From IMG/VR virus record IMGVR_UViG_3300032265_000775, positions 1 through 21,581 of that record: 21,581 nt of DNA. The stretch is one strand, 5' to 3'. Below the pieces are notes generated by a model. It did not search any database, was not told the DNA's origin, and saw only the letters and a program-made list of their open reading frames with translations. Shown here one piece after another: positions 14,091-21,181 of the stretch. Every line of letters begins with the position of its first letter. Position 1 is the stretch's first letter. A program made the translations under genes and the position numbers. This stretch comes from a virus.

Positions 14091-14348
14091 ATGTCAGGAC
14101 GCAATTATGGTGCAGAAGAAAAGGCAAAACTAGAAAGATTAATTTCAGAAGGCAGTACAGTACTACGTGAAGTTGAAGATTTAACCGAAGGCTTAAAAGA
14201 AACAGTTAAGGCAGTCGCAGAAGAGTTACAAATCAAACCATCAGTAATTAATAAAGCTATTAAGATTGCTCACAAAGGCGATTGGAAAGCTCACAATGCT
14301 GATTGGGAAGAGATTGAAGCTATTTTAGATATTACTAAACGTATCTAA
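14091..14348 (+). CDS. dsbA: DsbA-like double-stranded DNA-binding protein
   Basis: An 85-residue helical protein with a strong SD (AAAGGAG). The second half, VKAVAEELQIKPSVINKAIKIAHKGDW...EEIEAILDI, parallels T4 DsbA (IRAKDELGVDGKMFNRLLALYHKDN...EEVVELYD), a dsDNA-binding protein that stimulates late transcription and lies in the replication/late-transcription gene cluster. This is the phage DsbA, unrelated to the bacterial disulfide oxidoreductase. Similar small proteins precede replication genes in cyanophages. The match is moderate and from memory; a general helix-turn-helix role is the alternative. Confidence 0.6.
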   Translation: MSGRNYGAEEKAKLERLISEGSTVLREVEDLTEGLKETVKAVAEELQIKPSVINKAIKIAHKGDWKAHNADWEEIEAILDITKRI

Positions 14349-14427: not shown

Positions 14428-17094
14428 ATGAGCTATGTAGATGCATGGTTTGACCGCGAGAATGATATCATCAAAGTGGTTGAACGCAACACAAAAGGCG
14501 AAAGGGAATTTAGAGATATTCCTGTACGTCATACATTTTATGTAAAAGATCCACGAGGTAAACACACCTCAATTTATGGCGATCCCGTTCAGCGGATCGT
14601 TTGCAAAAATACTAAAGAACTTCGTAAAGAAATGGCCATTAATAGTGGCAAGACTATGTACGAAGCAGACATTAATCCAATATTTGTAACCCTTAGTGAA
14701 AATTATCTTAATCAAGATGCTCCAAAGTTAAATGTAGCGTTTTTCGATATTGAGGTAGACTTTGATCCAGAACGTGGCTATGCATCACCGGATGATGCGT
14801 TTATGCCTATTACTGCGATTGCTGTCTATCTACAATGGTTAGAAACTATGGTGTGTTTGGCTATTCCGCCTAAAGGTCTTAAGATGGAAGAAGCTCAGGA
14901 AATGATTAAAGATTTTCCTAATACGTATTTGTTTGATAACGAAGGTGACTTGCTAAACATGTTCTTAGATTTGATCAAAGATGCAGATATTGTTAGCGGA
15001 TGGAACTCGGAAGGATTTGATATTCCATATACTACTAATCGTGTAACTAAAGTTTTAAGTAAAGACGATACAAGACGCTTCTGTTTATTTGATCAATTTC
15101 CTAAACGTAGAGAATACGAAAAGTTTGGACGTGATAGTGTAACTTATGACTACATCGGTCGTGTACACTTAGACTATCTCGAACTATATCGCAAATACAC
15201 TTACGAAGAACGTCACAGCTACAGACTAGATGCTATTGCCGAATACGAATTGGGCGAACGTAAAACACAATACGAAGGCACGTTAGATCAATTATATAAT
15301 AATGATTTCCGCACATTTGTTGAATATAACATCAATGACTGTATGCTACTAGAGAAGTTGGATAAGAAACTAAAATTTATCGATCTTGCCAACACACTAG
15401 CACATGAAAATACAGTATTGCTTCAAACTACGATGGGTGCGGTAGCTGTAACTGAACAGGCTATTATCAACGAAGCACATCGAAGAGGTATGCAAGTACC
15501 TAATCGTCCTAAAATGGACGAGCGTGAGAATAATGCGGCTGCCGGTGCTTATGTTGCCTATCCCAAAGAAGGCATCCACGATTGGATCGGTTCATTAGAC
15601 ATTAATAGTCTATATCCGTCGGCTATTCGTGCCCTAAACATGGGGCCAGAAACTATTGTCGGTCAGTTACGACAAACTATGACTGACGAATATATTGAAA
15701 CTAAAATGGCAAAAGGCTCCAGCTTCGCGGCGTCATGGGAAGGTATATTTGGTTCGCTAGAGTATACAGCCGTAATGAATCAAGAGATCGGTACCGATAT
15801 AACTATTGACTGGGAAAACGGTGATACTGATGTGCTTAGTGCCGCGGAAGTATACAGACTAGTGTTTGAAAGCAACCAGCCTTGGACTATTAGTGCGAAC
15901 GGAACTATTTTTAGTCATGAAACAGAAGGTATCATTCCTGGCTTGTTAAAGCGTTGGTATGCCGAACGTAAAGAGATGCAGGCCAAACTTAAAGAAGCTA
16001 TCAATGCAGGTAACAAGATTGAAGAAGAATACTGGGACAAGCGTCAGTTGGTTAAGAAGATTAACCTAAATAGTTTGTATGGGGCTATTCTTAATCCCGG
16101 TTGTCGTTTCTTTGATAAGCGTATTGGACAATCAACTACACTAACAGGTCGACAAATTGCAAAACATATGGCGGCCAAGGTTAATGAGATTATTGCCGGT
16201 GAGTATAATCATACCGGTCGAGCAATTATCTACGGTGATACTGACTCATGTTACTTTAGTGCGTACAAGACACTGCAAAAAGACATAGATGCCGGTCATA
16301 TACCATGGAGTAAAGAAAACATTGTTCAATTGTATGATCAAATCGGTGAAGAAGTTAACCAAACGTTCCCACAATTTATGTTAGACACATTTCATGTGCC
16401 TAAGTCACGGGGTGAAGTTATCAAGGCAGGGCGTGAGATCGTTGGTAGTAAGAGCTTGTTTATTACTAAGAAACGGTATGCTGTCTTGTACTATGACAAA
16501 GAAGGCAAACGTGCAGACGTAGATGGAAAGCCTGGCAAGATAAAAGCTATGGGCCTGGACTTAAAGCGTAGTGATACTCCTGAATTTATTCAAAACTTCT
16601 TAAGTGATGTACTTGAAATGGTCTTAATTGGTAAGGCTGAACAAGAAGTATTAGATGCAATTAGCGAGTTCCGTATGAAATTCAAATCCAGACCGGGCTG
16701 GGAGAAAGGCAGTCCAAAACGTGCTAATAAGATTACAGAATATCAAGCTAAAGAAGTCAAAGCTGGTAAGACTAACATGCCTGGACATGTTCGTGCTAGT
16801 ATCAATTGGAACACTCTAAAGCGTATGTACGATGACAAGTATAGCATGGCGATTACTGACGGTGCAAAAGTTATCGTATGTAAACTTAAACAGAATCCGC
16901 TAGGTTATACAAGCGTTGCTTACCCAGTAGATGAATTGCGTTTACCACAATGGTTCAAAGATCTTCCATTTGATCATGCAGAGATGGAACAAACTATTAT
17001 TGATAACAAATTAGATAATCTTATCGGAGTACTGAAATGGGATATAACTAGCACCGAAGAGAAAAATACCTTCAATAGCTTATTTGAGTTTTGA
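14428..17094 (+). CDS. 43: Family-B DNA polymerase (T4 gp43 type)
   Basis: 888 residues, close to T4 gp43 (898). It carries an intact 3'-5' exonuclease: DIE at 107-109 (Exo I), NSEGFD with Asp198 (Exo II), YNIND at 300-304 (Exo III). The polymerase motifs are DINSLYPS at 391-398 (motif A), KKINLNSLYG at 543-552 (motif B) and YGDTDS at 602-607 (motif C), so both activities should be functional. It is the replicative polymerase. The last residues NSLFEF resemble the C-terminal clamp-binding peptide of RB69 gp43 (LFDMFDF), and the candidate clamp gene follows directly. The start is set by AAGG 6 nt upstream; the leader carries paired hairpins described separately. Confidence 0.98.
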   Translation: MSYVDAWFDRENDIIKVVERNTKGEREFRDIPVRHTFYVKDPRGKHTSIYGDPVQRIVCKNTKELRKEMAINSGKTMYEADINPIFVTLSENYLNQDAPKLNVAFFDIEVDFDPERGYASPDDAFMPITAIAVYLQWLETMVCLAIPPKGLKMEEAQEMIKDFPNTYLFDNEGDLLNMFLDLIKDADIVSGWNSEGFDIPYTTNRVTKVLSKDDTRRFCLFDQFPKRREYEKFGRDSVTYDYIGRVHLDYLELYRKYTYEERHSYRLDAIAEYELGERKTQYEGTLDQLYNNDFRTFVEYNINDCMLLEKLDKKLKFIDLANTLAHENTVLLQTTMGAVAVTEQAIINEAHRRGMQVPNRPKMDERENNAAAGAYVAYPKEGIHDWIGSLDINSLYPSAIRALNMGPETIVGQLRQTMTDEYIETKMAKGSSFAASWEGIFGSLEYTAVMNQEIGTDITIDWENGDTDVLSAAEVYRLVFESNQPWTISANGTIFSHETEGIIPGLLKRWYAERKEMQAKLKEAINAGNKIEEEYWDKRQLVKKINLNSLYGAILNPGCRFFDKRIGQSTTLTGRQIAKHMAAKVNEIIAGEYNHTGRAIIYGDTDSCYFSAYKTLQKDIDAGHIPWSKENIVQLYDQIGEEVNQTFPQFMLDTFHVPKSRGEVIKAGREIVGSKSLFITKKRYAVLYYDKEGKRADVDGKPGKIKAMGLDLKRSDTPEFIQNFLSDVLEMVLIGKAEQEVLDAISEFRMKFKSRPGWEKGSPKRANKITEYQAKEVKAGKTNMPGHVRASINWNTLKRMYDDKYSMAITDGAKVIVCKLKQNPLGYTSVAYPVDELRLPQWFKDLPFDHAEMEQTIIDNKLDNLIGVLKWDITSTEEKNTFNSLFEF

Positions 17095-17106
17095 AGAGAA
17101 AATATA

Positions 17107-17134
17107 TTGACATAGTCATAAAAACCTATATAAT
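17107..17134 (+). promoter_or_regulatory. Sigma-70-type promoter for the sliding clamp gene
   Basis: TTGACA (17107-17112) and TATAAT (17129-17134) with 16-nt spacing, beginning 13 nt after the gp43 stop. Transcription would start at about 17141, which makes an ATG at 17143 almost leaderless and favours translation from ATG 17155. It allows clamp-level expression independent of the polymerase message, in keeping with the higher copy number of a clamp. Confidence 0.75.
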
Positions 17135-17144
17135 AACATAACAT

Positions 17145-17148
17145 GGAG
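17145..17148 (+). promoter_or_regulatory. Ribosome binding site that decides the clamp start
   Basis: GGAG lies 6 nt before ATG 17155, ideal spacing, and overlaps the upstream ATG at 17143, which has no SD of its own. This selects MKDFLQDL as the N-terminus and removes four residues (MENY) from the longest reading. Confidence 0.7.
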
Positions 17149-17154
17149 AATTAT

Positions 17155-17886
17155 ATGAAAGACTTTTTACAAGATCTAGTAGCACATACACATAGCTTAG
17201 GCTTTTTGCCGTTGGTTAAAGTATCGGCAACTGACAAAGAAACAAAAATTGAATCAATGGCTGAAGACCGTTCAGTTATCCTTAATGCTAAAACGCATAA
17301 TCCTGTGGATAATTTTGAAGGTACATTCGGCATGCCTAATTTAAACAAATTAGATTTACATTTAAAGTGCCCGGAGTACAAAGAAGGTGCCAGTATTACA
17401 GTAGTTAAACAACAACGTAATGGGGAAGAAATACCGACAGGAATACATTTCCAGAATAGTACAGGCGATTTTGAAAATGATTATCGTTTTATGAATAGTG
17501 AAATTATTAATGAACGACTGAAGTCAGTAAAATTTAAAGGTCAAGGATGGGACGTAGAATTTGCACCAACTGTTGCTAGCATCCAGCGTTTAAAGTTTCA
17601 GGCTGCCGCTCATACAGAGGAATCAGTGTTCCAAGTTAGTACAGATAACGGAAACTTGATATTTAAATTTGGTGATGCATCGACACACGCAGGCTCATTC
17701 GTATTCCAAGCAGGCGTTAGCGGCAAACTAAAACAAACATGGTCATGGCCTGTGCAACAGATCCAAAGCATATTAGGTCTAAGTGGTGACATTACTATGC
17801 GGATTGCAGATGCAGGTGCATTACAAATTACTGTAGACAGCGGCATTGCTGAATACGAATATATCCTGCCAGCGCAGAGCAAATAA
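17155..17886 (+). CDS. 45: Sliding clamp (gp45-like)
   Basis: 243 residues, close to T4 gp45 (228). The sequence is diverged and has no catalytic motif, as expected of a clamp. The evidence is fold-like: alternating beta strands and short helices, and a C-terminal pattern GDITMRIADAGALQITVDSGIAEYEYILPA that ends like clamps in general (PCNA and DnaN also finish with a Y-x-x-x-P type strand). Position immediately after gp43 with its own promoter adds support. The ring would tether the polymerase and, in T4-like phages, also activate late transcription. Stop and next start share TAATG. If not a clamp, it would be another replication-linked protein, but I consider that less likely. Confidence 0.72.
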   Translation: MKDFLQDLVAHTHSLGFLPLVKVSATDKETKIESMAEDRSVILNAKTHNPVDNFEGTFGMPNLNKLDLHLKCPEYKEGASITVVKQQRNGEEIPTGIHFQNSTGDFENDYRFMNSEIINERLKSVKFKGQGWDVEFAPTVASIQRLKFQAAAHTEESVFQVSTDNGNLIFKFGDASTHAGSFVFQAGVSGKLKQTWSWPVQQIQSILGLSGDITMRIADAGALQITVDSGIAEYEYILPAQSK

Positions 17887-18062
17887 TGACTGAACTCCAT
17901 AAACGTACTATACTGCGAGCATTGAGTTATAGGATAGTGGCATTGCTCATAACTGCTATATGGACTGGGTTAAGTGATGCTATTATAATTCACATTATCT
18001 TAACTGCTGTACATTATATCATGGAAAGATTTTGGTTAAAAATAAAGTGGGGTAAACTTTGA
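17886..18062 (+). CDS. Small DUF2061-like inner-membrane protein
   Basis: A 58-residue ORF between the clamp and DpdA-like genes. HKRTILRALSYRIVALLITAIWTG (5-28), a second hydrophobic segment AIIIHIILTAVHYI (32-45) and MERFWLKIKWG (46-56) fit the DUF2061 pattern (R-x-x-x-K/R-A-x-S-Y-R, then a second helix ending in H-Y..ERxW..I.WG). Two membrane helices are expected with positive termini. Bacterial members are of unknown function. It starts in the clamp stop (TAATG) and its stop overlaps the next TTG start (TTGA), so it is translated from the same message. Confidence 0.8.
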   Translation: MTELHKRTILRALSYRIVALLITAIWTGLSDAIIIHIILTAVHYIMERFWLKIKWGKL

Positions 18063-19768
18063 ATCGTAATTTAACTGCTACACAAAACGACTACGCTTAC
18101 TTTTTGCCAGCTACATCTGGCTTTTATAGTACGTTCATAGGTAAACAACGCTATGGAAACTACGTAGACCCTGCACGTTTACCCGGATCCTTTACTAATG
18201 GGGTTGAAGGTTTGAATTATCTTGAACCTGATAAAGGCATGTTTTATTATGATCATTGCTTGTATTCAGCAGGTCATGCTAATTTAGATTTAACCAAACA
18301 AGATGATAGTGAAGATATGTTCCGTAATAGAGACCGTACTACTAGCTGGGTGTTAGGTGACTCTGGTGGTTTCCAAATTGGTAAAGGTGTATGGGAAGGT
18401 GAATGGAATGATCCAACAGGACAAATAGTAGCACAACGCATGGCAGAAGCAATTGCCAAAGGTATTGAACTAGTTCCACAATTACACCCAACAGGTCATC
18501 CTAAGACTGATAAGAATGGTAATCCTAAGTATACTAAAGTTGATCATGTTAAACTTTATCAGGCACAATTAGATGCCGCACAAAAGAAACGTGAACTAGT
18601 TTTAAATTGGATGGACGCACTCATGGACTATGGTATGGTGCTAGATATTCCAGCTTGGGTATGCCGCAGTCCAGCTGGTATTAAGGCTACCGGAATCTCA
18701 ACTTATCAAGAAGCAGTAGAAGCTACAAAGTATAATAATGAATATTTTATCAAACATCGCACAGGTGCTTGCAAGTTCCTAAATGTGTTGCAAGGTGAAA
18801 ACCATACTGATGCCGAAAATTGGTACGATGAAATGAAAAAATTCTGTGACCCTAAGCAATATGATAAACCATTTAATGGTTGGGCCATGGGTGGGCAGAA
18901 TATGTGTGACGTTCATCTAGTATTGAAAAGACTAGTAACATTACGGTTTGATGGGCTTCTTGAAAAAGGTCATCAAGACTGGATGCACTTCTTAGGCACC
19001 TCTAAATTAGAGTGGGCAGTTCTTTTAACCGATATTCAACGTGCTATTAGGAAATACCATAATGAAAACTTTACCATCTCTTTTGATTGCGCATCGCCAT
19101 TCCTTGCTACAGCAAATGGACAAATCTACATGGCAACTGAAACCCCGGACGGTGACAAATGGGTCTACCGTATGCAGGCTTCTGCAGACGACAAAAAATA
19201 TTCAACAGACACAAGACTATTCAAAGATGCAGTAGTCCAAGATAAGATTTTTGATAGATTTGAAACAAGCCCAATTATTGATCAAGTACAAATGAAAGAT
19301 ATTTGTATCTATGCGCCTGGCGATCTAAATAAAGTAGGAAAAGAAGGCCGCACAAGTTGGGATAGTTTTACCTATGCAATCATGATGGGGCATAATGTTT
19401 GGATGCATTGTAATGCTGTACAAGAAGCCAATCGACAAAGCGATACAGGAATAATTCCTGCCATGTTAAGTGCTACTACAGCAGATAAGTCACATAGAGA
19501 TTATAGCCCTGCACCAAATAAATTTAAAGATATTGTGGATTTGATATTTTCTATCGATAACAAACAAGATGCACTCGATTTGGTTGAATTTTATGGTTCT
19601 TATTTTGACAGCATAATTGGTACTAGAGGTAATACAGGGGATCGAATTACTAATGCTAGTGCCAAAGCAGACGAGTTTGGCTTTCCTGCGGTTGACTTTA
19701 GTGACCTAAAAGTTGTAAAATCAGAGAAAGCAACACCTATCTTAAACGATAATCTATTTGAATTTTAA
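18059..19768 (+). CDS. dpdA: TGT-like transglycosylase, probable DpdA-type DNA 7-deazaguanine inserting enzyme
   Basis: 569 residues from a TTG start that overlaps the previous stop (TTGA). It has the tRNA-guanine transglycosylase barrel signatures: LGDSGGFQ with Asp101, GWAMGG (274-279), and FDCASP with Asp343 in the place of the catalytic nucleophile. The C-x-C-x-x-C...H zinc site of tRNA-modifying TGT is not seen, and about 220 residues follow the core, as in phage DpdA proteins that swap guanine in DNA for preQ0-type bases and so protect against restriction. None of queC/E/F or folE is in the window, so the base would come from the host or elsewhere. The C-terminus LNDNLFEF resembles that of gp43 (NTFNSLFEF), a possible clamp-binding peptide. 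Confidence 0.8.
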   Translation: MNRNLTATQNDYAYFLPATSGFYSTFIGKQRYGNYVDPARLPGSFTNGVEGLNYLEPDKGMFYYDHCLYSAGHANLDLTKQDDSEDMFRNRDRTTSWVLGDSGGFQIGKGVWEGEWNDPTGQIVAQRMAEAIAKGIELVPQLHPTGHPKTDKNGNPKYTKVDHVKLYQAQLDAAQKKRELVLNWMDALMDYGMVLDIPAWVCRSPAGIKATGISTYQEAVEATKYNNEYFIKHRTGACKFLNVLQGENHTDAENWYDEMKKFCDPKQYDKPFNGWAMGGQNMCDVHLVLKRLVTLRFDGLLEKGHQDWMHFLGTSKLEWAVLLTDIQRAIRKYHNENFTISFDCASPFLATANGQIYMATETPDGDKWVYRMQASADDKKYSTDTRLFKDAVVQDKIFDRFETSPIIDQVQMKDICIYAPGDLNKVGKEGRTSWDSFTYAIMMGHNVWMHCNAVQEANRQSDTGIIPAMLSATTADKSHRDYSPAPNKFKDIVDLIFSIDNKQDALDLVEFYGSYFDSIIGTRGNTGDRITNASAKADEFGFPAVDFSDLKVVKSEKATPILNDNLFEF

Positions 19769-20020: not shown

Positions 20021-20537
20021 ATATACTAGCGGTACAAGCGAAGATGTAACATTTTTTATTGGTACAGAAATTGAGCGTACACCTGCTTTTGGTATGCGTA
20101 CATTGTTTGTTGTAGGTACACACGACGAGCAAGTTATTGTTAGCCTAGCTAAAAACAACGATTGCAATCATATCTATTTTGGAGCTAATCAAAGTTTTGG
20201 TACCAACGGAGTTAATGATATCCCGGGATGGAAACCGTGGGAAGATATGATCCAAGGTTGCTTAGATGCAGGGTACTGGTGTACTTTAGATTTTGATGTT
20301 TCGGAACACGAAGGTGTTTTAGAAAGTGGCTTAACAGAACATCGTCGATTTATTCCACAAATCAGTGTAAAATTACCATATCTAAGTCAATTAGGCTACA
20401 ATGCTACAATTAAAATTGATGACAAAGACTTTGATGCAACTAATCCAGGAGTATGGTGTGTTCCGATCAGTGCTATTACACAACGCAAATATTTCACCAA
20501 CTGGGATGAATATACTAACGATGAAATTATAAAGTGA
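20010..20537 (+). CDS. Conserved T4-like marine phage protein, function unknown
   Basis: 175 residues. FFIGTEIERTPAFGMRTLFVVGTHDE near the N-terminus, HIYFGANQSF in the middle, and FIPQISVKLPYLSQLGYNATIKIDDKDFDATNPGVWC near the end recall a protein found across cyanophage-type T4-like genomes; I know of no function. It is a globular mixed alpha/beta sequence with clustered aromatic residues and no signal or membrane segment. It overlaps the previous gene by 11 nt and the next by 4 nt (GTGA), so it is translationally coupled in the dpdA operon. Confidence 0.75.
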   Translation: MKREYTSGTSEDVTFFIGTEIERTPAFGMRTLFVVGTHDEQVIVSLAKNNDCNHIYFGANQSFGTNGVNDIPGWKPWEDMIQGCLDAGYWCTLDFDVSEHEGVLESGLTEHRRFIPQISVKLPYLSQLGYNATIKIDDKDFDATNPGVWCVPISAITQRKYFTNWDEYTNDEIIK

Positions 20538-21181
20538 TAAACTACAAAGTACATTCTATTCCTAATCGAGGGTTTTTACTGGTTGATATTCCTGCCGACG
20601 TTCTTTCGTCTATAAACAATGAAATTAATAGCATTTCATCTAATAGAACTGCTTCTAAAAAAATGACTAAAGAACTAGTTGGTCAAATTGCAAATGAATT
20701 TGAAATGTTTGATTCACGCTCAACAATAGAAAAACTATCATTAGAATTAATAAACGAATATGAACGTCATTTTAAACATGCCAGTTTAAGATGTGATATT
20801 TTACAAAATCTTAAATTAAACCCTTCAATGTTTGAACTCGGACCGTTATGGGTTAATTTTCAAAAGAAATATGAGTATAATCCTCCGCACAAACATTCGG
20901 GCGTATATAGCTTTGTAATGTGGATTAAAATCCCGTATAATATACAAGATGAACGTAATGCAGAGAACTCTATTGATTCTTTTAGGAATAGCAATGGAAT
21001 TTTTTATTTTCAATTTATAGATTCTCTAGGGGAAATTAATAAATTTTCGTTTGATGCTGATAAATCATACGAAGGTAAAATGTTATTTTTTCCTGCAGAA
21101 ATGTGGCATGGGGTAAATCCATTTTTTACATCCGACAACGAACGAATTTCAGTAAGTGGTAATATATTTTTAAAGGCATAA
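20534..21181 (+). CDS. 2OG-Fe(II) oxygenase-like protein
   Basis: 215 residues from a GTG that overlaps the previous stop. Residues 104-215 resemble the phage 2OG-Fe(II) oxygenases: NPPHKHSGVYSFVMWI (116-131) with His119 and His121, GKMLFFPAEMWHGVNPF with His192, and RISVSGNI with Arg204, the expected 2-oxoglutarate anchor. These enzymes hydroxylate proteins or nucleobases using iron, oxygen and 2-oxoglutarate. The usual Asp/Glu of an HxD triad is not obvious (HKHS), so activity is not certain. The N-terminal 100 residues are helical and not assignable. Location downstream of the DpdA-like gene leaves open a role in base modification. Confidence 0.7.
   Translation: MINYKVHSIPNRGFLLVDIPADVLSSINNEINSISSNRTASKKMTKELVGQIANEFEMFDSRSTIEKLSLELINEYERHFKHASLRCDILQNLKLNPSMFELGPLWVNFQKKYEYNPPHKHSGVYSFVMWIKIPYNIQDERNAENSIDSFRNSNGIFYFQFIDSLGEINKFSFDADKSYEGKMLFFPAEMWHGVNPFFTSDNERISVSGNIFLKA

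Follow-up and report, generated by a model that had tools for sequence, protein, structure and literature searches.

How do phages come to replace one-quarter to one-third of their guanines, rather than all of them, and when in the cycle does the replacement take place? DpdA and DpdA2, enzymes of the tRNA-guanine transglycosylase (TGT) family, insert 7-deazaguanines into phage DNA (Hutinet et al. 2019, PMC6884629); that paper is silent on a clamp, on any C-terminal motif, and on coupling to replication. Here we analyzed a stretch of 21,581 nucleotides (IMG/VR record IMGVR_UViG_3300032265_000775; referred to as the window) from a large freshwater phage, in which a predicted DpdA2-like enzyme ends in the same residues as the phage's own DNA polymerase.

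Four genes of this locus lie on the plus strand, with neighbors overlapping or almost overlapping. The first encodes an 888-amino-acid family B DNA polymerase of the gp43 type (positions 14,428 to 17,094; Pfam DNA_pol_B, 4e-38; PHROG 262, 1e-199), whose nearest named relatives are those of the jumbo phages Phosso, Atu_ph07, and the RaK2/121Q group. It is followed by a candidate sliding clamp gene (17,143 to 17,886), a gene for a 58-amino-acid membrane protein (17,886 to 18,062), and the predicted transglycosylase gene (18,059 to 19,768), an order that bears out the initial annotation, which had placed the clamp between polymerase and transglycosylase. The same annotation had called the small open reading frame (ORF) DUF2061-like; the window's own copy has no Pfam match, and the name holds only through its equivalent in the closest relative, L005 (96% identical), which matches DUF2061 (PF09834) at 28.2 bits against a cutoff of 23.1.

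The second gene encodes 247 amino acids, or 243 from an internal ATG at 17,155, and its product had been expected to fold as a clamp. An AlphaFold2 model built from an alignment of 19 sequences (pLDDT 82.5) has the two-domain clamp fold of gp45 and PCNA and matches PCNA in both Foldseek (E = 1.4e-10) and VIA-align (Z = 16.5 over 228 amino acids). The protein also matches PHROG 12062 (8e-35), a family whose member in Vibrio phage 2.275.O additionally matches the processivity factor PHROG 223; an HMM search of PDB sequences with the clamp alignment gave no match. The product of 17,143 to 17,886 thus models as a sliding clamp of the PCNA/gp45 type.

The fourth gene, which starts with TTG, encodes 569 amino acids. 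Its product matched nothing in Pfam, PHROGs, or NCBIfam scans or in an HMM search of PDB sequences with the DpdA alignment. Structural comparison of its model, a poor one (pLDDT 56.6), returned TGTs for all of the best 50 VIA-align matches (Z of 9.8 to 11.2, 249 to 281 residues aligned), and the top Foldseek match was the archaeosine TGT 1iq8. By profile, the window family is linked to the DpdA2 family of phage nt-1 (hhalign Prob 94.8, E = 5e-8, 370 columns), and DpdA2 in turn to TGT (Prob 93). Direct comparison with 9g-type DpdA1 gave a Prob of only 1.6 to 4.8, but the control of DpdA1 against TGT itself reached just 2.4, so this test is underpowered, and we took the relation to TGT from structure comparison and the DpdA2 bridge instead. 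Aligned with E. coli TGT by hhalign, at a score that is not significant, GDSGGFQI of the window protein falls on TDSGGFQV. This DSGGFQ motif (residues 101 to 106, 18,359 to 18,376) is the equivalent of the TGT active-site motif, and D343 (19,085 to 19,087), in ISFDCASP (compare MFDCVMPTR of TGT), is the likely nucleophile; both are invariant in 25 homologs, including those of 2.275.O, PA5oct, and Phosso, and the motifs FLNVLQGE, GWAMGG, and HFLG are also present. The TGT/DpdA-like identity given in the initial annotation is therefore upheld: fold model and motifs mark the product as a TGT-fold, DpdA2-like enzyme.

Does such an enzyme act on DNA? The fold is that of a tRNA-guanine transglycosylase, and DNA mass spectrometry for the window group was not found in the accessible literature, so an enzyme acting on tRNA, with its clamp-like tail serving another role, has to be weighed. 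We judge this highly improbable: the closest profile is DpdA2, the DNA of phage nt-1 contains dPreQ0/dADG/dG+, a replisome tail makes little sense for a tRNA enzyme, and precursor genes are phage encoded. Of 14 records, 11 have FolE, 5 have QueD, and 1 has QueC; folE and queE are found in close relatives (in L005, QueE sits beside FolE) and queD in larger contigs. The window contig carries no precursor genes, an absence that says little because the contig is short. Since queC is missing from most relatives, the gene content suggests that the inserted base is 7-carboxy-7-deazaguanine or that host preQ0 is used.

What sets the locus apart is how its two enzymes end. Read directly from the ORFs, the polymerase terminates in ...STEEKNTFNSLFEF (NTFNSLFEF; peptide TFNSLFEF, of clamp-binding type, at 17,068 to 17,091) and the transglycosylase in ...KATPILNDNLFEF (LNDNLFEF; peptide NDNLFEF, the proposed clamp-binding tail, at 19,745 to 19,765). 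As first reported, the LFEF ending is unique to this pair, with no third case among window ORFs of at least 60 amino acids. Across eight related genomes or contigs, LFx[FW] C termini occur in 10 of 1,572 predicted genes (eight polymerases and two DpdAs) and in none of the remaining 1,562; in the 349-kb genome of 2.275.O, the 2 such ends among 496 genes are again those of polymerase and DpdA. One could still suppose that the likeness is functionless, a product of chance, composition, or gene conversion between neighboring ends, given that the match spans only four residues and that LF-type motifs turn up in some 5% of the 60-residue tails of unrelated genes. Besides the empty background of 1,562 proteins, the codons speak against this: synonymous codons differ between the tails (TTATTTGAGTTTTGA against CTATTTGAATTTTAA), which are therefore no recent duplicate of a single gene end, and we rejected the idea of copied DNA on this ground. 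The motif also survives divergence of the linker, is relocated in most homologs, and recurs across three DpdA groups (see below). A functionless match is thus already strongly disfavored, and we regard it as extremely improbable; the likeness of the two tails is real and beyond chance.

Relatives of the window locus show what is conserved. The 73 unique polymerase tails follow T-F-N-[SN]-L-F-[ED]-[FW]. An LF or FF motif is kept in nearly all of 113 distinct DpdA tails (terminal in 37, internal at about 35 residues inward in 72, QVNNLF in 1, and degenerate in 3), counts that overstate independence because the homologs are related by descent. The conserved unit is TxFxxLF[ED], either terminal (LFE, LFEF, LFEL, or LFEV) or internal. 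The initial annotation would have been refuted by homologs with a variable C terminus, and the relatives do not refute it: the motif is kept, although the linker, the position of the motif, and the last residue vary, the motif lies off the terminus in most relatives, and LFEF as such is not conserved. Judged from these alignments, this is behavior typical of a short docking motif. An apparent association of FF-type polymerase tails with FF-type DpdA tails (Fisher P = 6e-4) was set aside, as its three cases form one clade with 98%-identical polymerases. Each of the 151 related loci has its clamp gene upstream of dpdA on the same strand, at a median gap of 195 bp. In Phosso, the dpdA gene is distant from those of the clamp and the polymerase, and its product ends in no more than EGLF.

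The tail might instead belong to the folded enzyme or to a dimer interface, its likeness to the polymerase being convergence on a generic hydrophobic end, and in DpdA1 the tail does follow closely behind the TGT core. In the window family, however, the preceding linker (residues 533 to 562, 19,655 to 19,744) is poorly conserved, variable in length, and probably disordered (pLDDT 36 to 43 over the last 50 residues of a model that is poor overall), the motif occurs at either of two distances from the core, and nt-1-like DpdA2 does without it. A structural role of this kind is very unlikely.

In two other lineages as well, the tail tracks that of the phage's own polymerase, as read from their sequences. 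In Vibrio phage 2.275.O, polymerase and DpdA tails change together (NTDLFDW and NNDLFGW). In marine T4-like phages with DpdA2, gp43 ends in TLEGLFG and DpdA2 in TLEDLFG-like peptides; T4-like contig G016 has ATLEGLFG and VSLEDLFA, and other DpdA2 proteins end in ATLEDLFG or ATLEGLFG. DpdA2 of nt-1 and KVP40-like phages lacks the tail, though these phages have gp45, and the tail is thus not essential to the chemistry. DpdA1 enzymes, apparently unrelated to the window family, adjoin beta clamps (clamp downstream in 76 of 77 cases) and carry an LF-type, QELF-like tail in 77 of 77, against a background of 2 in 750. An exact Qxx[LMI][FW] end, as in the canonical bacterial beta-clamp-binding motif QxxLF (a pentapeptide with a QL[SD]LF-like consensus), occurs in only 3 of 77 viral-contig DpdA1 proteins; most end in [VI]QELF, with the Q one place nearer, and we therefore make no strong claim that the DpdA1 tail is the canonical motif. 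In the window phage and in many unrelated phages, the predicted guanine-swapping enzyme ends in a likeness of the polymerase's clamp-binding tail.

In known systems, tails of this type bind the clamp. The C-terminal peptide of RB69 gp43 binds gp45, and so do the similar C termini of T4 gp43, gp55, and gp33, which can be exchanged for one another and also function when internal (PMC2988020). By sequence, the window DpdA shares such a short hydrophobic-acidic C-terminal motif with its own polymerase. The gp55 and gp33 epitopes likewise follow a divergent flexible linker but tether RNA polymerase for late transcription rather than a DNA-modifying enzyme (PMC2988020). In T4, gp45 binds several partners and offers at least two sites (PMC2988020), and the clamp gene sits in a general replication neighborhood; the tail could accordingly dock on another replisome partner, such as the single-strand binding protein, the clamp loader, or the primosome. 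Binding of the RB69 peptide to gp45 itself, the adjacency of DpdA and clamp in both the window-family and DpdA1 loci, and the resemblance of the DpdA1 tail to the bacterial beta-clamp motif make this unlikely.

The closest precedent for a base-modifying enzyme on a phage sliding clamp, with modification proposed to be linked to replication, is the T4 alpha-glucosyltransferase, which binds gp45 (Sommer 2004, cited and confirmed by pulldown in PMC13216743); in the 2026 study, the modification level was judged to depend mainly on something other than this binding (PMC13216743). That enzyme differs in glucosylating hydroxymethylcytosine, and the accessible part of the study describes no polymerase-mimic tail (PMC13216743). 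We found no earlier report of DpdA with a clamp in the open-access literature. Eukaryotic DNMT1 is tethered to PCNA by a short peptide and modifies newly replicated DNA; it differs in being a methyltransferase with a PIP box and has no homology to the window enzyme.

From the computed clamp and TGT folds, the tail that both enzymes share and relatives conserve, the order of the genes, and the folE, queE, and queD genes linked to it in relatives, we infer that the tail binds the clamp and that the enzyme exchanges bases on DNA, as well as which base is inserted and when, and we consider it likely that the DpdA2-like enzyme docks on the clamp by a polymerase-mimic tail that couples 7-deazaguanine insertion to replication. 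The enzyme encoded at 18,059 to 19,768 would replace guanine in the phage's DNA with a 7-deazaguanine, and its NLFEF peptide would mimic the polymerase's own clamp-binding peptide and dock on the clamp encoded just upstream. The disordered linker of about 30 residues would let the enzyme ride the clamp, so that base exchange would follow the replication fork and new DNA would gain protection from restriction soon after synthesis. Viral DNA would then probably be disguised while being copied.

Other modifying enzymes carry comparable ends. In G016, a GT4/GT1-like enzyme adjoining DpdA2 ends in SLESLFA; a beta-glucosyl-HMC-alpha-GT-like enzyme of G018 ends in ASLEDLF, and a TAGT-like enzyme of Phosso ends in QLSDLFDFG. 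It is evenly balanced, in our view, whether clamp tethering underlies phage DNA hypermodification in general. If it does, DpdA2-like enzymes (with a gp45/PCNA clamp), DpdA1 (with a beta clamp), and several glycosyltransferases would each have gained or kept a local copy of the clamp peptide, and modification would run behind the fork.

A clamp-docking tail would give a direct and testable answer to the question of how and when guanines are replaced, placing modification at the fork or immediately behind it, and would explain the long-visible order of dpdA, clamp, and polymerase in DpdA1 phages. The idea can be reduced to a simple one-peptide test. As a sequence signature, the tail may also help to uncover unknown DNA-modifying enzymes in phage dark matter, and it could provide a means of bringing modifying enzymes to replicating DNA.

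The DNA polymerase of the window (family B, gp43-like; 14428-17094, + strand) ends in NTFNSLFEF and the transglycosylase (DpdA; 18059-19768, +) in LNDNLFEF; no other ORF in the window ends in LFEF. Between them, in the order given by the initial annotation, lie a candidate clamp gene (17143-17886, +) and a 58-amino-acid ORF (17886-18062, +) that has no match in Pfam and whose equivalent in the nearest relative (L005, 96% identical) is a DUF2061 gene. Overlaps of a few bases join the clamp gene, this ORF, and dpdA. Because the Leu and Glu codons differ between the two tails, a recent duplication is excluded. Immediately 5′ of the polymerase is a gene for a DsbA-like transcription regulator (14091-14348; PF11126 slightly below the cutoff; PHROG 639).

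The product proposed to start at 17155, modeled from 17143 (pLDDT 82.5), indeed folds as a clamp, matching PCNA with a Foldseek E value of 1.4e-10 and a VIA-align Z score of 16.5 over 228 residues. Its homolog in Vibrio phage 2.275.O additionally matches the PHROG of DNA polymerase processivity factors, and the Sinorhizobium phage Phosso homolog, which shares PHROG 12062 with it, carries the annotation "sliding clamp." The homolog in Pseudomonas phage PA5oct, gp170 (L003:10915-11661), is annotated as a structural protein found by mass spectrometry, which is probably a misannotation or a sign that the clamp is packaged in virions.

The transglycosylase has no match in Pfam, PHROGs, or NCBIfam. 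AlphaFold modeled it with low confidence (pLDDT 56.6), and the best 50 VIA-align rows for this weak model are all tRNA-guanine transglycosylases (TGTs; Z, 9.8 to 11.2). By sequence profile, its place is with DpdA2 from nt-1, a Vibrio phage (Prob 94.8, E = 5e-8); DpdA2 in turn matches Escherichia coli TGT (Prob 93). The TGT motifs DSGGFQ, LDIPA, FLNVLQGE, GWAMGG, HFLG, and ISFDCASP occur in the correct order, and neither D101 nor D343 varies among 25 homologs.

To assess chance, we predicted 1,572 genes in eight related genomes and contigs (2.275.O, PA5oct, and six environmental contigs). Ten proteins end in LFx[FW], comprising all eight polymerases and two DpdA proteins, and none besides polymerase and DpdA does. 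In the 349-kb genome of 2.275.O, this end occurs on only 2 of 496 genes, those for polymerase (NTDLFDW) and DpdA (NNDLFGW). The remaining DpdA proteins mostly end in LFE (one residue less), LFEV, or otherwise, or carry the motif internally, as in PA5oct (FNSLFDV in DpdA; polymerase end, FDSLFGW).

We then examined 149 loci from two scans of viral contigs, plus three isolates. The clamp gene precedes dpdA on one strand in all 151 loci having both (median gap, 195 bp; abutting or overlapping in 48). Among 113 distinct DpdA tails, LF or FF lies at most two residues from the end in 37 and within the final 60 residues in 72; one has QVNNLF and three have YF, HF, or NF. Terminal motifs follow a linker of ~30 residues, while internal ones directly adjoin the enzyme core (GTRGATGKKTVNAS-TMFANLFDEV) and precede an acidic extension of ~35 residues. 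The LF motif is thus conserved, although the literal LFEF end is not the conserved unit; with its letters constant and its position shifting, it behaves as a docking peptide. The consensus sequences, T-F-N-[SN]-L-F-[ED]-[FW] for polymerases and T-x-F-x-[NS]-L-F-[ED] for DpdA, are one motif; its loose form has a 5% background in unrelated genes.

DpdA tails also covary with those of the polymerases encoded alongside them, as in 2.275.O and PA5oct above. Distant DpdA2 proteins of marine T4-like contigs end in ATLEDLFG, VSLEDLFA, INLEELF, or ATLEGLFG, and one of these contigs (G016) encodes a gp43 ending in ATLEGLFG. DpdA2 proteins of the nt-1 and KVP40 type end in FKS or FKEQE, without an LF tail (gp43 there ends in TLESFFG), and are a natural tail-less case.

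The unrelated DpdA1 family presents a similar arrangement. In phage 9g and 14 further phages, dpdA follows folE (or a small gene) and is itself followed, often with a small gene intervening, by the genes for the beta clamp and then the polymerase; tails are LF type throughout (VQELF, IQELF, QPGLF, QRRLF, LQDLFDE; one QSLW). In Dp-1, the clamp gene lies 0.6 kb downstream of dpdA, with no polymerase within the stretch examined. Among 77 complete DpdA1 proteins from viral contigs, 70 have [LMI][FW] within two residues of the end (the others have QELY, QDLFGTLA, QDLYGMLQ, or QDLFKGLTPC), as do 2 of 750 other proteins of those loci; a clamp gene follows in 76 of 77. The likeness to the bacterial beta-clamp motif seems real but inexact, as Gln in most tails is one place closer to LF than in QLxLF.

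In T4, the C termini of gp43, gp55, and gp33 are alike (hydrophobic and acidic), bind gp45, and are interchangeable; the gp55 epitope functions when placed internally, and its preceding linker is divergent (PMC2988020). A 2026 T4 study reports that alpha-glucosyltransferase copurifies with gp45 and that expression is the main determinant of modification level (PMC13216743). DpdA is required for 7-deazaguanines in phage DNA (Hutinet 2019, PMC6884629); that paper does not mention a clamp, and we found none linking DpdA to one in the open-access literature.

Together, these results bear out the tails and gene order of the initial annotation and support its proposal of clamp-tethered, replication-coupled modification. 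We infer that DpdA most likely uses its tail to dock on an unoccupied subunit of the clamp ring, next to the polymerase or trailing it, and would swap guanines in freshly made duplex. That the tail increases yield is a guess, made because nt-1-like DpdA2 is tail-less and nt-1 DNA is far less modified (~0.02 to 0.1% of Gs) than that of the DpdA1 phage CAjan (32%; PMC6884629), a contrast with many other possible causes.

The window stops 1.8 kb past dpdA, short of where relatives carry precursor genes; in L005, the distance downstream is 5.6 kb for folE and 6.7 kb for queE. FolE occurs in 11 of 14 records, QueD in 5, and QueC in 2.275.O alone. The complete genomes of PA5oct and Phosso encode FolE, QueD, and a protein annotated as QueE-like, and QueC was not found in either; the inserted base may therefore be 7-carboxy-7-deazaguanine, its derivative, or host-derived preQ0.

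In 2.275.O, the gene directly following dpdA (L001:16723-17835) encodes an amidoligase-like protein (PF12224, E = 1.8e-4, slightly below the cutoff) that could amidate a carboxylated base. Glycosyltransferase-like proteins encoded 3′ of dpdA in PA5oct (gp167, L003:13620-14681) and L005 (11795-12892), alike at their start (ETRYTxxW), might further decorate 7-deazaguanine. A base-modification role is conceivable for a 2OG-Fe(II) oxygenase (20534-21181; PF13759, 41 bits) 0.8 kb past dpdA, a position kept in L005.

In Phosso, whose polymerase ends in TFNDLFTF, a weakly matched TAGT-like glycosyltransferase (223052-223924, L448:1053-1925; Pfam E = 0.026, PHROG 842 E = 0.012) ends in TQLSDLFDFG and a small protein encoded after folE (153487-153894) in NLNDLFDFG; both are possible further clamp clients. 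Glycosyltransferase-like proteins of two marine contigs with DpdA2, G016 (L465:53128-54486, directly adjoining DpdA2) and G018 (L467:3328-4254; PHROG 842, beta-glucosyl-HMC-alpha-GT, E = 0.0013), end in SLESLFA and ASLEDLF, resembling the tails of gp43 and DpdA2. As far as we found, a known enzyme class and a known kind of tether are joined here for the first time, and the fact that matching tails recur among glycosyltransferases of phages suggests a wider rule, beyond DpdA.
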